NCBI GenBank assembly: GCA_943788505.1
Contig: CALSQR010000002.1
Location: 1,129,213 to 1,193,212, forward strand
Reading direction: 5' to 3'
From: an uncultured bacterium
GTDB taxonomy: Bacteria; Bacteroidota; Rhodothermia; Rhodothermales; UBA10348
DNA: 64,000 bases
Shown: positions 6,031 through 62,027 of the stretch, one piece after another
How positions within the stretch are numbered: position 1 is the first letter of the stretch
How the letters are laid out: each line of letters opens with the position of its first letter
The notes under the pieces: generated by a model
Databases searched by the model: none
Told to the model about the DNA's origin: nothing
Seen by the model: the letters and a program-made list of their open reading frames with translations, nothing else
Translations under genes and position numbers: made by a program

Positions 6031-7152
6031 TCAGGCGTACGTATTCAACATCACTGGCATGATGAGCATCATCATGGTTTCGCCTTCCTTCTGGTTAGCT
6101 GGAGTGACAACGCCGGCTCGGTTGGGCGATGAGAACTCAAACAAGACGTCTTCAGCATCTATGTTCGAGAGGACTTCTGTGAGGTACGTGGCATTGAAGC
6201 CGATGACTAGGCTGTCCCCGTCATAATCGCACGGAACGGTCTCATTGGCAGCGCTGGCCCGTTCAAGGTCTTCTGCTGAGATGACCACACTGTCTTTTTC
6301 CACCGAAAGCCGAATCTGATTCGTCATGGTCGAGGAATACAGAGCCACACGTTTCACGGCAGCCAGCATCGTGTCCTTATTGGCTGTCATTTTCTTGTCA
6401 TTGTCGACAGGAATAACAGCCTGGTAATTTGGATAGGGCTCATCAATCAGGCGAGCCAAGACCCGTGAGTCGCCGAAGTCAAATCCAGCATATCCGCTGT
6501 CTACGGTAAGGGTACAGGAGTCATCGGTGGCCACCTTGGCGGCCAATGAAACAGCTTTTTCCGGGACGATGAAATCCATGTCTTCCGATGAGCCGAGGTG
6601 ATCAAGCTGAAGCTTGACAAGACGATGCCCATCGGTGGCAACGGCTTTGCCAGACTCTCGGCCAATCTGGAAATAGATTCCCATCATGGCTGGTCGTAGC
6701 GCATCCCGGCTAACTGCAAAGCTGGTTTTTGTGATGGCTCGTTTAAGCAACGCGCCATCGGTTTCGACCGAAACACTGTCGCTCAGCTCAGGAAGTGCCG
6801 GGTAATCGGCTCCATCATGGCCGACCATTTTATAGTGTCCTTTATCGGTGTCGAGAACGACATTGAAGTCATCATCGGCAGAAAAACGAACTGGCACGTT
6901 CGACAATGCACGAAGCGTGTCGATCAATCGCTTGGCAGGAACGGCGACTCGCGATGGGCCGTCGATTTCAACGGCAACGTTGATCTTCTGGATAATGGAG
7001 ATCTCCAGATCCGTAGCGCTTAGCCGGAGCTTGCCACCGTCTTCTTCAAAAAGAATGCATTCCAGAATAGGAAGCGTGCTTTTGGTTGGAACGGCGCCAC
7101 TGACGGTCTGCAGGGCTTTGAGAAGTTCAGCGCTTGAAGCGGCGAATTTCAT
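6031..7152 (-). CDS. dnaN: DNA polymerase III beta subunit (sliding clamp)
   Basis: 373 residues from the ATG at 7152. An upstream in-frame ATG at 7197 would add 15 residues not seen in the family, which begins MKFxxxxxxLLxxL. Typical clamp features are present: GAVPTKSTLPILECILFE, LSATDLEISI, VAVPAKRLIDTLRAL and a C-terminus ending MMLIMPVMLNTYA, matching the 'MPM' ending of clamps. It forms the ring that tethers the replicative polymerase. It lies 128 bases downstream of dnaA on the same strand, the classical dnaA-dnaN order. Confidence 0.96.
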   Translation of the reverse strand: MKFAASSAELLKALQTVSGAVPTKSTLPILECILFEEDGGKLRLSATDLEISIIQKINVAVEIDGPSRVAVPAKRLIDTLRALSNVPVRFSADDDFNVVLDTDKGHYKMVGHDGADYPALPELSDSVSVETDGALLKRAITKTSFAVSRDALRPAMMGIYFQIGRESGKAVATDGHRLVKLQLDHLGSSEDMDFIVPEKAVSLAAKVATDDSCTLTVDSGYAGFDFGDSRVLARLIDEPYPNYQAVIPVDNDKKMTANKDTMLAAVKRVALYSSTMTNQIRLSVEKDSVVISAEDLERASAANETVPCDYDGDSLVIGFNATYLTEVLSNIDAEDVLFEFSSPNRAGVVTPANQKEGETMMMLIMPVMLNTYA

Positions 7153-7280
7153 GATGGGGTACCCGAGGTTGAACTGATCCGGGAAGATACCAACCACGAC
7201 CCCCCGATTGCTACCCGTGAGTCGTGTTTTTGATGGCCTTGAGCAAGGATTATCCGTGATGTGCGGAAGAGAAGCTCATT

Positions 7281-8831
7281 TTAGCGGCTACGAAGGTCAA
7301 TTTTATTGGTAATCTCGTCGATGATCTCAGAAAATTTAGGATCTGTTTCGATCTGGTTCTCGACACTCGTGTTGGCATGAATCACCGTAGAGTGGTCCCT
7401 TCCTCCGAAGTGAAGGCCAATCGTTTTGAGGGAATGCTGCGTCAGTTTTTTACAGAAGAACATCGCCACCTGACGAGCTTGCACGACTTCCCGCTTTCGG
7501 GTTTTGGCACGGACAAGGTCTTCTTCAATGTTGAAATACTCGCAGACCAGGCGTTGAATCTGATCTATTGTCAGCGTGACGCGGGTATCTGTGATCAGAT
7601 CGCGCAAGACGTCTTTTGCAAGAGAAAGGTCAATTTCTCGTTTGTGGAGCGTGCCATGAGCGAGAAGTCTGATAAGTGCGCCTTCTAACTCGCGTATGTT
7701 CGACTTGATGTTGTGAGCGACGAATTCAAAAATATCATCACTAATATCGATCCCGTCCTCGATCGCTTTTCGGCGTAGGATGGCCATGCGAGTTTCAAAG
7801 TCCGGCGGTTGAAGGTCAGCCGAAAGCCCCCACTGGAATCGCGACAATAGCCGTTCTTCGATTCCCTGGATGTCTCTTGGTGGACGATCTGCGGACAGGA
7901 TGATCTGCTTACCGCTCTGGTGGAGGGCGTTGAAAATGTGGAAGAACTCCTCCTGCGTCTTCTCTTTGCCACTGAAGAACTGAACGTCATCGATGACTAA
8001 CAAGTCGATCTGGCGATAGAAGAGGGAGAAGTCACTGACTCGGTTGTTCTGGATAGCTTGAACAAATTCGTTCGTGAAGCGCTCGCTTGAAACGTAGAGC
8101 ACCGTTGCGTCAGGCTTGTTCGCATGCAAGTAATTTCCAATCGCCTGGATAAGGTGGGTTTTCCCAAGCCCCACGCCACCGTAGAGCAGGAATGGGTTGA
8201 AGCTCGTTCCGCCAGGCTGCTGCGCGATGGCGACTGAGGCACTTCTGGCGAGTCGGTTACAGTCTCCTTCAATGAACCTATCGAACGTGTAGTTCGGATT
8301 CAGATGGGACTCGACTTGGATTTTCTGTATCCCAGGAATCACAAATGGATTGCTAATCGTCGTTCCACCAGTCGGTGCGGTAGACGGGTTACCAAATCCG
8401 GTATGGCCTGACGGTGTAACAGGCATTCCGAACCCGCCGTGTCCCATGCCCCGTTGGTTGCCAGCAGTCTGGCGGCCTGCAGTGAAAGTTGGTTGTGGTT
8501 CATTCGCGGGCTGACGAGCAGGCAACTGCATAACCGTACCGTCAAATCCAGATTCCTGATCGTCTTTTTCAATGACGATATCGTAGAAGAGCCTTCCCTG
8601 CGGACCAAGAACCTTCGTTATCGTTTTGCGGAGAAGACCGAAATAATGTTCTTCGAGCCACTCAAAGTAAAAACGGCTGGGAAGCTGAATGGTAAGCTTT
8701 GACAGCTCAACGTCTTCCTCCAAACGAAGCGGCTTCAACGGAGAAAACCACGTCCGGAAACTTTGACGGCTGACGTTATCTCGGATGATATCGAGACACG
8801 CGTTCCAGACTGTTTCGGGAGTCTTCTCCAT
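7281..8831 (-). CDS. dnaA: Chromosomal replication initiator protein DnaA
   Basis: 516 residues, somewhat longer than the usual 440-470. Domain I (about 1-90) starts VWNACLDIIRDNVSRQSFRTWF. Domain II (about 95-175) is a Gly/Pro/Thr-rich linker that accounts for the extra length. Domain III is an AAA+ ATPase with Walker A GGVGLGKTHLIQ near residue 219, Walker B LLVIDDVQFF, and sensor segments. Domain IV carries the DNA-binding signature GGRDHSTVIHA. The protein binds DnaA boxes and opens the origin. The long intergenic region upstream of its start is a candidate origin. Confidence 0.97.
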   Translation of the reverse strand: MEKTPETVWNACLDIIRDNVSRQSFRTWFSPLKPLRLEEDVELSKLTIQLPSRFYFEWLEEHYFGLLRKTITKVLGPQGRLFYDIVIEKDDQESGFDGTVMQLPARQPANEPQPTFTAGRQTAGNQRGMGHGGFGMPVTPSGHTGFGNPSTAPTGGTTISNPFVIPGIQKIQVESHLNPNYTFDRFIEGDCNRLARSASVAIAQQPGGTSFNPFLLYGGVGLGKTHLIQAIGNYLHANKPDATVLYVSSERFTNEFVQAIQNNRVSDFSLFYRQIDLLVIDDVQFFSGKEKTQEEFFHIFNALHQSGKQIILSADRPPRDIQGIEERLLSRFQWGLSADLQPPDFETRMAILRRKAIEDGIDISDDIFEFVAHNIKSNIRELEGALIRLLAHGTLHKREIDLSLAKDVLRDLITDTRVTLTIDQIQRLVCEYFNIEEDLVRAKTRKREVVQARQVAMFFCKKLTQHSLKTIGLHFGGRDHSTVIHANTSVENQIETDPKFSEIIDEITNKIDLRSR

Positions 8832-9639
8832 GGTGGATATTTGGCAATGGAGTCAGTTTCCTGACACCGAATATGAATCGGTAGCCAGCAGAGGGAAACG
8901 GTCAAGGTTTTGACACCTTACGGTCAGACTTACGGCGTAAGCACTGAAAAAACGGGAGGTTATTCACGTTTTCCCAACAGAAATACGCACGAATGATCTG
9001 GCCAAACTGATGTGCGTCAATCCCGGGGTGGATGCGCGGTCTTCTCAGTCAGGCTTCGAATGCTGAAAATCTCAATATGTTGTAAACAAGTGACTTACAC
9101 CCAAAAACAGGACCATATCGAGTGGGTAAAGGTGTCGACGGCTAATTCGCCACATTATGACGAAGCGAAGCCATCTACCTCTCCATAATGGAGAAATACA
9201 CATCTTGTCCACACAAGTCAGCCAGTTCGGGCCAGCTGCTGTTTCGTCGATCAGCCGAAGATGCCTGGACATGAATCCGGGCGTTCGGAGTGGGGAGACC
9301 AACAAAACTGCAAACCATTGGTCATACTCAATTTCGGGCTCTCGGGAGAGTTCTTCTGGAGTACGCCGGCAGATCAAATGCGTTTTACCACATCTATCTC
9401 AACGCCGGGTACGATTCTAACCACTGACTACTGAAAGTTCAAGGCTTGCGGTCGGGATTTCACACAACAAAAAGCCCGCGAGCGCAAATTAGACTTCACA
9501 CGCTTTTCGGCAAGTTTGCCCCCCTCAAATCATTGCAGAATGGGAAGATGTAGCCGTATCTTAACCCTTCTGTGTCCGAATCACCTCGGGCCGCACAAGG
9601 AATAAAACAGATTGATGCCTGCCCGGTCGGGAAACCGTC
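8832..9639. other. 808-base non-coding region upstream of dnaA; possible replication origin
   Basis: No credible gene is present. Genes diverge from here: dnaA-dnaN leftwards on minus, YceD-rpmF-plsX-fab rightwards on plus, which is what an origin would show. DnaA-box-like sites are few and imperfect: TTATTCACG (8960-8968), TTGTCCACA (9205-9213) and the weaker TTTACCACA near 9384. A perfect 7+1+7 palindrome TCTCCAT-A-ATGGAGA lies at 9180-9194, and CTCTCGGGAGAG at 9339-9350. The site count is too low to be decisive; it may simply contain two promoters. Confidence 0.35.
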
Positions 9640-42465: not shown

Positions 42466-42579
42466 CTTCCATCAAGAACGACCGAGGGACAGGCCCTGAG
42501 ACGTCGTAGCAACCGCGATTCCGATAGGAATCAGAAGGTGCTAAATCCTGCTCAAAGCGAGACCGAGACAGATGGGAAG
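42466..42579 (+). promoter_or_regulatory. SAM-I (S-box) riboswitch aptamer
   Basis: The conserved S-box blocks appear in order: ATCAAGA (P1 5' side and kink), GAGGGACAGGCCC, GTAGCAACC, a variable P3 stem around GATTCCGATAGGAATC, GGTGCTAAATCCTGC, and the closing AGATGGGAAG. P1 pairs CTTCCATC (42466-42473) with GATGGGAAG (42571-42579). The downstream genes are methionine biosynthesis enzymes, as expected for this class. SAM binding should stabilise P1 and turn the operon off. Confidence 0.93.
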
Positions 42580-58397: not shown

Positions 58398-61300
58398 TCA
58401 TCCGCATCCGCTCGTGTTTCCACAGTTAGGGCAAGAATAACAGGCCCCACTGCGCACGGTGATGCTGCCGCAATTTGAACAAGGAGGTGCATCCTCCTGA
58501 TTGGCAAACGTTGTTTCGGTGGTCGAGGCACTGGCCGTAGCCGTAGCCACAGCTGCCACTTCTGAACCAGAACGACCTAAGAAATCTTCTACCGTGTCAC
58601 CGACTAGCGGGTCAACGGTTGTAGTCGTTTCAGCCGTGAACATATCGATCTGCTCGAGATCTTCCGCTGGGTCGTCAACAACTGGCTCCTCCTTCTTTGG
58701 CTCTTCGATTGGCTGCGTTAGGAAACGAAGAGAGAGGTACCGGAAGATGTAGTCCATGATCGACTTAGCGATCGGGATCTGTCGGTTGTTGGTGAATCCG
58801 TTCGGTTCGAAGCGCATGTGGCTGAACTTATTGCACAGATCTTCCAATGGAACGTTGTATTGCAACGCGATCGAGATCGACGTGGCAAAGGCATCCATTA
58901 GACCTGAAATGGTCGAACCCTCTTTGGCCATCGTGATAAAGATCTCGCCCGGCATTTTCGTGTCGGGGTACATCCCGATGTGCAGGTAGCCTTCATGACC
59001 CGCGATTGAAAACTTGTGGGTCAATGACGGGCGTTCATCTGGCAGTCTGTGACGCACTGACTTATGAACGATGCGCTCAACGACTTTGATTTCTGGCTCC
59101 ACCGTTGAAGCCATTCCATCTCCCGACGTGGCTTTCGTTGCTCCCTTAGTGTTTCCACCTTTACTGGTAGCTAGTGGCTGGCTACGCTTAGAGTTTTCAC
59201 GGTAGATGGCGACAGCTTTCAGACCGAGTTTCCAACCCTGCATGTAGGCGTCCGAGATTTCCTCGACCGTCGTGTTCTCCGGCATGTTCACCGTCTTGGA
59301 GATTGCACCTGAGATGAAAGGCTGAGCTGCAGCCATCATCTTAATGTGTCCCATATGATGAATGGAACGTTCTCCGTTGAATGGCTTGAATGCGCAATCG
59401 AACACAGGTAGATGCTCCTCCTTGAGAGCTGGCGCACCTTCAATCGTGTCCTTCTCATCGATATACTTGATGATTGCATTGCACTGCTTCTTCGTGTAAC
59501 CGAGACGTGCCAGCGATTCTGGAACGGTCTGGTTGACGATTTTCAGCATACCATCTCCTTTTCCGGCGAGTAGCTTGTACTTGACCAGGGCGATATCAGG
59601 CTCGACGCCTGTCGTGTCACAGTCCATCATGAAGCCAATCGTTCCGGTCGGTGCCAGAACGGTGGACTGCGCATTGCGATAGCCATACTTCTCTCCGAGT
59701 GCGACCATACGGTCAGCAGACTCGCGAGCAGCTTCAACAAGGTACTCGGGACACGACGAGTGGATCGTGTCCACTGCATCTCGGTGCATTCGCATAACTT
59801 CGAGAAACGGCTCTCGGTTGGCGTCGTAGCCGTCGAAGGTGCCGATCTTTGGGTTACCAGCGATCTGTGCAGAGCGGGCATATGCTTCGCAATGCTCGAT
59901 AGCCATGACTGCTCCTGCCACAGCGCGACCCTCGTCACTGTCGTACGGCAATCCCATCGACATCAAGAGCGCTCCGAGGTTGGCAAAGCCGAGACCAAGG
60001 GGGCGGTACGCATGGGAATTCTCAGCGATGGACTTCGACGGATATCCGGCGTTATCGACCAGGATTTCCATAGCTGTGATGTAGATACGAGCAGCTGCGC
60101 GGTATCGGTTTACATCAAACGTGCCATCTTCCTTCTGGAACTTGCGCAGGTTCAGCGATGCTAGGTTGCATGCTGAGTCGTCAAGAAACATGTACTCTGA
60201 GCATGGATTGCTCGAATTGATCTGAGCACTGTTCTTACACGTATGCCAGCGCTGAATGGTGTCTTCGTACTGAACCCCCGGGTCTCCGCAGATGTGCGTA
60301 CCCTCAGCGATTCGCTCCAGAATATCGGAGGCGTCCACCTCTTCGAGTGGCTCGCCAGTTTTGACGGCTCTCAAAGCATAGGCTGCGTTATCGTCAGCAG
60401 CAGCCATGAAATCGTCATCGACACGCACTGACTGGTTGACGTTCTGAAATGCCACCGAACCATAAGCCGGACCATTAAAGGAGCCGTCGTATCCCTGTTC
60501 TATCAGTGCCCAGGCTTTTTTCTCTTCTTCCTGCTTTGCATCGACGAATTCGAGGATGTCAGGGTGCCAGCTCTTCAGCGTTTGCATGATCGCAGCGCGC
60601 CGCGTCTTTCCACCTGACTTGATCGTTCCACCTGTCGCATCCTGAACTTTCATGAAGGAAACAGGCCCCGAAGGCGTTCCACCGCCCGACAGGCGTTCAC
60701 GGCTAGAGCGCAAGGTTGACCAGTCTGCGCCTACACCTGATCCAAACTTGAAAAGACGGGCACTCTCGCCCATCAACTGCCAGATATCATCGATCGAATC
60801 TTCTACGGAGATGATGAAACAGGCCGATGCCTGAGGGCGGATGTACGGATCTACCGCTACAGCCTTTTTCTTTTTCTCATCCCATCCGAAAATAGTTTTT
60901 CCACCTGAGTCCTTCACACCATACTGATGGTGGAGACCAACATTGAACCAGACTGGGCTATTGAAAGCGCCATACTGATTGACGCATAGCCAGCTCAGTT
61001 CATCATAGAACGTTGCGGCGTCTTCCTTGCTGGCGAAATATTTTTGTTTGAGTCCCCAATCAGCGATTGTGCGAGTAACACGGTGAATAAGCTGGCGGAG
61101 GCTGTTCTCGCGGCCACCCTCTGAAGGGTGTGTACCGTTCATCGACAACTCGCCGTAAAAGTATTTACTTGCTACGACGTTTGTGGCCAACTGACTCCAA
61201 GAGACAGGAAACTCCAAATCAGTCTGTTCAAAAATCTTCTCACCCGTATGATTCTTGATGGAGGCGTCGCGGCGCTCCCATGTCACAGAATCGAACGGAT

Positions 61301-61406
61301 CTTCTCCTTCGTTTGAGAACACGCGGTCAATGACAAGACCTCGCGTTACATCTACTTCAGTGCCGGAGTCTCCTCCGAACAACGTTTCCCGGTTGGCATC
61401 AGGCAT
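58398..61406 (-). CDS. nrdJ: Class II (adenosylcobalamin-dependent) ribonucleotide reductase
   Basis: 1002 residues. The reductase core shows SSNPCSEYMFLDDSACNLASLNL with an active-site Cys region, ASACFIISVEDSIDD, and the phosphate-binding PTGTIGFMMDCDTTGVEPD. The C-terminus carries a linker rich in Thr/Glu and ends in a zinc-ribbon-like cluster (CSNCGS, CYSCPNCGN, CG) used for thioredoxin-type reduction in this subfamily. It makes deoxyribonucleotides using vitamin B12, independent of oxygen. A good Shine-Dalgarno sequence (GAGGAG) precedes the ATG. It is divergent from the gene at 62028. Confidence 0.96.
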   Translation of the reverse strand: MPDANRETLFGGDSGTEVDVTRGLVIDRVFSNEGEDPFDSVTWERRDASIKNHTGEKIFEQTDLEFPVSWSQLATNVVASKYFYGELSMNGTHPSEGGRENSLRQLIHRVTRTIADWGLKQKYFASKEDAATFYDELSWLCVNQYGAFNSPVWFNVGLHHQYGVKDSGGKTIFGWDEKKKKAVAVDPYIRPQASACFIISVEDSIDDIWQLMGESARLFKFGSGVGADWSTLRSSRERLSGGGTPSGPVSFMKVQDATGGTIKSGGKTRRAAIMQTLKSWHPDILEFVDAKQEEEKKAWALIEQGYDGSFNGPAYGSVAFQNVNQSVRVDDDFMAAADDNAAYALRAVKTGEPLEEVDASDILERIAEGTHICGDPGVQYEDTIQRWHTCKNSAQINSSNPCSEYMFLDDSACNLASLNLRKFQKEDGTFDVNRYRAAARIYITAMEILVDNAGYPSKSIAENSHAYRPLGLGFANLGALLMSMGLPYDSDEGRAVAGAVMAIEHCEAYARSAQIAGNPKIGTFDGYDANREPFLEVMRMHRDAVDTIHSSCPEYLVEAARESADRMVALGEKYGYRNAQSTVLAPTGTIGFMMDCDTTGVEPDIALVKYKLLAGKGDGMLKIVNQTVPESLARLGYTKKQCNAIIKYIDEKDTIEGAPALKEEHLPVFDCAFKPFNGERSIHHMGHIKMMAAAQPFISGAISKTVNMPENTTVEEISDAYMQGWKLGLKAVAIYRENSKRSQPLATSKGGNTKGATKATSGDGMASTVEPEIKVVERIVHKSVRHRLPDERPSLTHKFSIAGHEGYLHIGMYPDTKMPGEIFITMAKEGSTISGLMDAFATSISIALQYNVPLEDLCNKFSHMRFEPNGFTNNRQIPIAKSIMDYIFRYLSLRFLTQPIEEPKKEEPVVDDPAEDLEQIDMFTAETTTTVDPLVGDTVEDFLGRSGSEVAAVATATASASTTETTFANQEDAPPCSNCGSITVRSGACYSCPNCGNTSGCG

Positions 61407-62027
61407 AGGTACTCCTCAATTTTCAGGGTGCAAATAATATGGGCATCGTTAGCACGGGCTTTTCAGGCTACCCTTGTGTGTGACTGCGGGTGGGTGTCGC
61501 ATGGCGACGGTGGGATTCGCAGAGAGCACGGGAAACAGACCACCAAGCTAGATCCGAAGTAAACGAAAACATGCCGGTTTACGCGAGGAATGCATCCTCA
61601 GAGGCGATAACCGAAAAGTGCCAGGTGGCGGCGGGTGCGGATGATAATAAATGAGCATAATCGCCGTTATGCAAGCAATAATTTTCCACATTTACATAAT
61701 TAACAAAACTACCCAAAAAACGGTATCAGGAAGCGCCCAAGGGAGATTGGTAAGGGGCTCTCCTTCACTCACACGAACCCTAAATCCGTTATTGCCCCAA
61801 GTTATTGTTGAAAGGAGGTTTGTTATCAAGGCGTTTTCCACAGAGGACCTCTTGGTCGGCTCAATAACGGTCTTATAGCGAGCACAATAACGGCAATTTA
61901 GCGTAGGCAATCTGAGGGGCGATTTGCACGATCTTCTCCCGATATAAAACGAACCTAGTAGCGGATGGTGGGTACAAGGCGCCCAAGAAATAGTCCGTTA
62001 TCCACGACCGACCGACACGCAAAAGAC
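61407..62027. other. 621-base non-coding region between nrdJ and the divergent gene at 62028
   Basis: No credible gene lies here. It contains an AT-rich stretch (about 61641-61720), two exact TTTTCCACA sites (61682-61690 and 61834-61842), one TTATCCACG (61998-62006), and a cluster of CCGTTAT-type repeats on both strands. It may be a replication-origin-like region or a multi-site control region for nrdJ and its neighbour. A cobalamin riboswitch was looked for and not found convincingly. Confidence 0.45.
61664..62001. repeat. Cluster of CCGTTAT(TG) repeats
   Basis: CCGTTATTG occurs at 61786-61794 and its complement CAATAACGG at 61862-61870 and 61885-61893. The 7-base core CCGTTAT also appears at 61664-61670 and 61995-62001, the last fused to CCACG to give a DnaA-box-like TTATCCACG. 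A near relative, GATAACCG, lies at 61606-61613. Five copies of one 7-mer in about 340 bases is far above chance expectation. Confidence 0.75.

Follow-up and report, generated by a model that had tools for sequence, protein, structure and literature searches.

Catalytically inactive XerD-like proteins exist in streptococci, and the arm site of a tyrosine recombinase is an asymmetric word of 11 to 13 bp. DnaA regulates nrd genes in bacteria outside the group studied here. No fork traps with polar terminus sites are known other than Tus-Ter and RTP, which occur in some Gammaproteobacteria and in Bacillus; each of these two proteins regulates its own gene, whose promoter contains a ter site (PMC10331603). 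In Bacillus subtilis, XerD acts as an SMC unloader at the terminus, as stated in passages of two reports (PMC8669397, PMC12322038). Our searches of the open-licence literature gave no earlier description of the site or system set out below and no pertinent account of how replication terminates in Rhodothermus or Salinibacter; the text matches to the 9-mer were unrelated among the matches listed.

The locus lies in a 2.75-Mb Rhodothermales genome consisting of two contigs. The window, meaning the whole 64,000-nt stretch of DNA that was analysed, corresponds to C2:1129213-1193212.

An ordered repeat array upstream of nrdJ

The sequence-only reading had noted a cluster of repeats with DnaA-box-like sites between nrdJ and a divergent gene, and every motif it named is present: CCGTTATTG at 61786 (+), CAATAACGG at 61862 and 61885, CCGTTAT at 61664 and 61995, TTTTCCACA at 61682 and 61834, and TTATCCACG at 61998 (Table 1). 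The clustering of CCGTTAT is real. Five copies fall within 401 bp, with P(>=5) of about 6e-10 (Poisson, density taken from the rest of the window), and the whole window holds 11 copies, compared with 4.7 +/- 2.2 in shuffles. TTWTNCACA is not enriched over the whole window (3 seen, 3.1 expected), and the two boxes of this type at nrdJ keep their position in relatives. Genome-wide, CCGTTATTG is not over-represented in the window's own genome, with 33 copies and 33 for the reversed pattern, which served as the control in word searches. The unusual feature is the clustering of the 9-mer rather than its genome-wide count.

Table 1. Features of the window, in window coordinates
Feature	Coordinates	Strand	Remarks
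dnaN	6031-7197		identified by its sequence
dnaA (window copy)	7281-8831	-	
SAM riboswitch RF00162	42466-42578		70.5 bits
nrdJ	58398..61406	-	class II (B12-dependent) ribonucleotide reductase; Pfam Ribonuc_red_lgC and Ribonuc_red_2_N
Divergent intergenic control region	61407..62027	.	interval between nrdJ and small gene; conserved, 26 loci compared
Putative nrdJ promoter, TTGCAT-N19-TATTAT	61644..61674	-	conserved alignment block; assigned by consensus reading
Site R4, inverted CCGTTATGC	61664..61672	+	~221 bp from R1 in many loci; overlaps putative nrdJ -35
DnaA-like box D2, TTTTCCACA	61682..61690	+	17 bp from R4 where both present
Site R3, inverted CCGTTATTG	61786..61794	+	~99 bp from R1 in most loci
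DnaA-like box D1, TTTTCCACA	61834..61842	+	TTATCCACA in several relatives; 52 bp from R1 in most loci having D1
Site R2, CCGTTATTG	61862..61870	-	23 bp from R1
Site R1, CCGTTATTG	61885..61893	-	reference point for conserved layout
CCGTTATCCACG	61995..62006	+	listed in the sequence-only reading; outside conserved set
Small conserved gene, 133 aa	62028..62429	+	divergent from nrdJ; no Pfam match

Relatives share this layout upstream of nrdJ. Counted from R1 at 0, the order is R2 at +23, D1 (TTWTCCACA) at +52, inverted R3 at about +99 and inverted R4 at about +221, with D2 placed 17 bp before R4 and, at the nrdJ loci of relatives, often an R5 near +300. Of the relatives that have both R1 and R2, nearly all space them by exactly 23 bp, and G032 by 24. 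A search for the exact pair, CCGTTATTG-N14-CCGTTATTG, finds it in the own genome and 26 of 59 relatives, controls giving zero or one match per genome even with two mismatches allowed, and the examined loci that carry it adjoin nrdJ. CCGTTAT is present 117 times across 26 nrdJ loci, where dinucleotide shuffles give 2.0, and DnaA-like boxes 39 times, where they give 1.1. At R4 and the putative nrdJ -35, the alignment conserves TTGCATAACGG. In genera g9 and g10 the direct pair persists and the inverted sites are missing. Most relatives have no counterpart of CCGTTATCCACG at its position, and it lies outside the conserved set. The sequence-only reading had listed three outcomes as jointly counting against its proposals: repeats not conserved before nrdJ in relatives, skew that does not turn at the element, and a 7-mer common across the genome. 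Skew indeed does not turn at the element, and the 9-mer is at background frequency in the own genome, but the repeats before nrdJ are strongly conserved.

The same site upstream of an Xer-type gene and smc

The proposal that the repeats are the operator set of a new regulator is supported, in that the 9-mer recurs before the same genes throughout the order. Found through CCGTTATTG pairs at other spacings and then tested directly, an Xer-type gene is preceded by CCGTTATTG, at a distance of up to 500 bp, in 29 of 30 genomes (7 families), the exception being G034. Upstream of smc, CAATAACGG is found in 20 of 29 genomes from 5 families. By chance the 9-mer is expected upstream of a gene with a frequency of about 0.004. 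The sequence flanking the xer and smc sites varies among families, so their conservation is not merely recent common descent. We are highly confident that CCGTTATTG marks a real operator set that includes nrdJ; xer and smc were the further targets assessed, and the full regulon could extend beyond them or differ from this set. At most xer promoters the site runs on into TTGAC and overlaps the -35 element, which suggests autorepression, and R4 appears to overlap the putative -35 of nrdJ in the same way.

A conserved CCGTTATTG pair also lies 3' of a rhomboid gene (L099 ~8250-9534; own C2:570250-571533). It precedes a putative terminator-ended RNA of 110 nt, apparently a small RNA, past which is a long, apparently structured non-coding stretch with no Rfam match above the gathering score.

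Several other candidate regulators of nrdJ were rejected. No match to the NrdR box consensus, ACACWATATATWGTGT, occurs in the window with up to three mismatches. No Rfam match falls in the nrdJ region, the SAM riboswitch at 42466 being the only riboswitch in the window. The 133-aa neighbour is 66-84% identical in 10 relatives, but its AlphaFold model (pLDDT 73) has only weak dsRBD-like matches and no clear DNA-binding fold, and the gene was also not found beside nrdJ in L019, L022 and L114.

A catalytically dead Xer as the candidate binder

The product of the Xer-type gene belongs to the tyrosine recombinase superfamily (Phage_integrase PF00589, E 5e-21; XerD 1a0p, E 3e-24). We read 31 orthologues from 8 families, all outside f10, f12, f13 and f14, and both catalytic arginines are replaced in every one: the first by serine (GLSEIEI or a close form; GLRVSEL in XerD) and the second by threonine (HSLTH; HVLRH in XerD). 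None of the 31 thus qualifies as an active Xer. In the alignment to XerD 1a0p the lysine and the histidines are still in place, and so is the tyrosine at those loci that extend to it. Active Xer paralogues with both arginines are present in G036, G032 and G015.

Such long retention without recombinase chemistry implies that the dead Xer should be a DNA-binding protein, and the word at these sites resembles a tyrosine recombinase arm site in length and asymmetry. In the one f15 genome searched, no Xer orthologue was found at E<=1e-20, and f15 lacks the terminus array described below; both points favour the dead Xer, as do, by analogy, Tus/RTP autoregulation and B. subtilis XerD. Whether the dead Xer binds CCGTTATTG we judge close to evenly balanced, tilting towards binding, and CCGTTATTGCAA is a further candidate sequence for it.

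The strongest competing explanation is that the operators belong to another transcription factor and that the dead Xer gene is merely one of its targets. The site-conservation data fit this equally well, and transcription factors commonly have operators of this kind, with direct and inverted 9-mers at more than one spacing. It leaves unexplained, however, the loss of the catalytic arginines, the inward-pointing array and the absence of Xer from the f15 genome, and we found no candidate gene for such a factor; we therefore regard it as rather unlikely.

Inward-pointing sites around the terminus

In two genomes the 9-mer exceeds its control (G036, 23 versus 6; G032, 20 versus 2), and the excess consists of a 12-mer, CCGTTATTGYAA, that is invariant at terminus sites. 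Many genomes carry about 6-15 copies of CCGTTATTGYAA on both strands, with controls near 0. In six chromosomes, those with usable contigs (families f3, f7, f11, f12 and f13; G028 and G042 are of the same genus and not fully independent, and one G036 copy was counted across the record start), 64 of 64 sites point inward to a single pivot. Two opposed groups of sites thus flank the terminus, the arrangement expected of a fork trap. The pivot is the GC-skew switch in both genomes checked (G036, 4.46-4.47 Mb; G032, ~3.48 Mb), and an active Xer gene and a dif-like palindrome lie there.

At the array centre in these two genomes, a NUMOD4/HNH_3 gene overlaps the gene for an active tyrosine recombinase (L366 5278-6914, L369 17334-18873), and the dif-like palindrome is just upstream of the pair. 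The NUMOD4/HNH protein was rejected as a general binder because it occurs only in G036 and G032 among the sequences examined.

The array is not universal. It is nearly gone in the own family (0-6 copies), so a terminus role cannot be general. The own genome has two copies, both directed towards C1 ~312 kb, where the skew turns and places the terminus. A dif-like palindrome, ATGTAACATAA-GGTTAA-TTACGTTACAT, is located at G000:C1 ~311865 (L145), at that turn. Copies of CCGTTATTGYAA are scarce in families f10, f14 and f15, yet f10 and f14 possess the Xer orthologue (51-55% identity), which counts against the model set out below. So do the missing smc site in 9 of 29 genomes and the missing xer site in G034, as well as G046, in which one contig has an extra + / - pair outside the main array. 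Beyond the shared 9-mer, promoter and terminus sites also diverge, and each kind might have a protein of its own. Any given function at the terminus is less probable than binding of the dead Xer to CCGTTATTG.

The terminus copies might instead be KOPS-like sequences that orient FtsK, sharing their 9-mer with the promoters by coincidence. Terminus-directed polarity on both arms would suit such sequences. An invariant 12-mer with only 6-15 copies in each genome would not, nor would the recurrence of its 9-mer, in both orientations, at promoters of three kinds, and we consider this quite improbable.

Location relative to the origin and to DnaA boxes

An origin-like element was another proposal of the sequence-only reading, and it is not supported. 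GC skew, computed on spaced stretches and hence sampled rather than continuous, turns from negative to positive about 50-140 kb from the nrdJ element in three genomes: near 2.50 Mb in G036 (element 2.553, ~54 kb apart), near 0.60 Mb in G060 (element 0.468, ~130 kb apart) and, for the own genome, near C2 1.06-1.13 Mb (element 1.191, ~60-130 kb). The contigs of the own genome would join with C1 reversed, judging from replichore symmetry. The nrdJ element has two conserved DnaA-like boxes; clusters of four lie beside dnaA in G036 and G060 (in G060 at 612.3-612.5 kb, adjoining the second dnaA). An oriC made of DnaA boxes and repeats beside an AT-rich stretch would account for the fixed spacing of the boxes and the single element per genome, and neither the skew switch, within ~140 kb of nrdJ, nor dnaA-dnaN, ~54 kb from the element in the window, is far away. 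With the switch and the DnaA-box clusters located elsewhere, and the 9-mer also present at the smc and xer promoters and the terminus, we rejected oriC at this element as highly improbable.

DnaA-dependent control of nrdJ, also suggested by the sequence-only reading, is plausible: DnaA-like boxes occur in 23 of the 26 orthologous nrdJ regions, at mostly fixed positions, and point to joint control by DnaA as likely. Far less likely is DnaA as sole controller (or as a protein titrated at the locus) with CCGTTATTG as a variant DnaA site, a scarcely credible alternative despite the conserved boxes, the shared 9-mer length and the two dnaA genes of the own genome, since CCGTTATTG is unlike TTATNCACA and kept separate from it, the single-dnaA genome G036 has the same layout, and DnaA is not expected to give a terminus array.

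The two dnaA genes of the own genome are at window 7281-8831 (-) and G000:C1 ~1145920-1147446, and both carry the DNA-binding signature GGRDHSTV. G015 and G060 also have two, and G036 and G055 have one.

Proposed model and comparison with known systems

If a single protein recognised the word in front of nrdJ, xer and smc and at the terminus, all of these observations would be explained: the sites, their conservation, positions and polarity, and the lost residues. We propose that the nrdJ control region is a fixed array of CCGTTATTG operators for one protein, interleaved with DnaA boxes, and that the same operator fronts a few genes of the chromosome cycle, including at a minimum nrdJ, the Xer-type gene and smc. 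The binder would be the catalytically dead Xer, acting purely as a DNA-binding protein. It would repress its own promoter via the site overlapping the -35, control nrdJ together with DnaA, and touch smc. In many relatives, the same protein might bind the inward-pointing CCGTTATTGYAA sites and there unload SMC or block outgoing forks. Replication of the terminus array may titrate the dead Xer, coupling the end of replication to gene expression. Taken as a whole, with the dead Xer as operator protein for nrdJ, xer and smc and as the protein of the terminus sites, this is the reading we lean towards, if narrowly; binder, repression, DnaA binding and terminus function are all predictions from the genomes compared. 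The fullest form, in which the dead Xer is a master chromosome-cycle protein of Rhodothermales that governs nrdJ (with DnaA), smc, itself and a polar terminus array, amounting to a third terminus system, is possible though doubtful.

If true, the model would add a third, convergent polar terminus system in another phylum than those of Tus-Ter and RTP. One protein would tie together DNA precursor supply, chromosome folding and termination, and a recombinase would have been converted into a pure DNA-binding regulator. With a site of 9-12 bp and a named candidate protein, the model is directly testable.

Compared with known systems, DnaA-like boxes fixed upstream of a ribonucleotide reductase gene recall DnaA control of nrd genes elsewhere, but here the gene encodes a class II enzyme, NrdJ, and copies of another, unrelated operator stand among the boxes. 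The dead Xer may share with the streptococcal XerD-like proteins an Xer fold without the catalytic residues. It may resemble B. subtilis XerD as an Xer-family protein whose terminus role is tied to SMC, but the Rhodothermales candidate is catalytically dead, its presumed sites precede its own gene as well as nrdJ and smc, and those that it presumably binds at the terminus are polar and convergent. Relative to Tus-Ter of E. coli and RTP-ter of B. subtilis, the site sequence is different, the binder proposed is an Xer rather than a Tus or RTP homologue, and fork arrest is putative. As in those systems, two opposed groups of sites flank the terminus, and a site lies in the promoter of the candidate protein itself, suggesting autoregulation here too.
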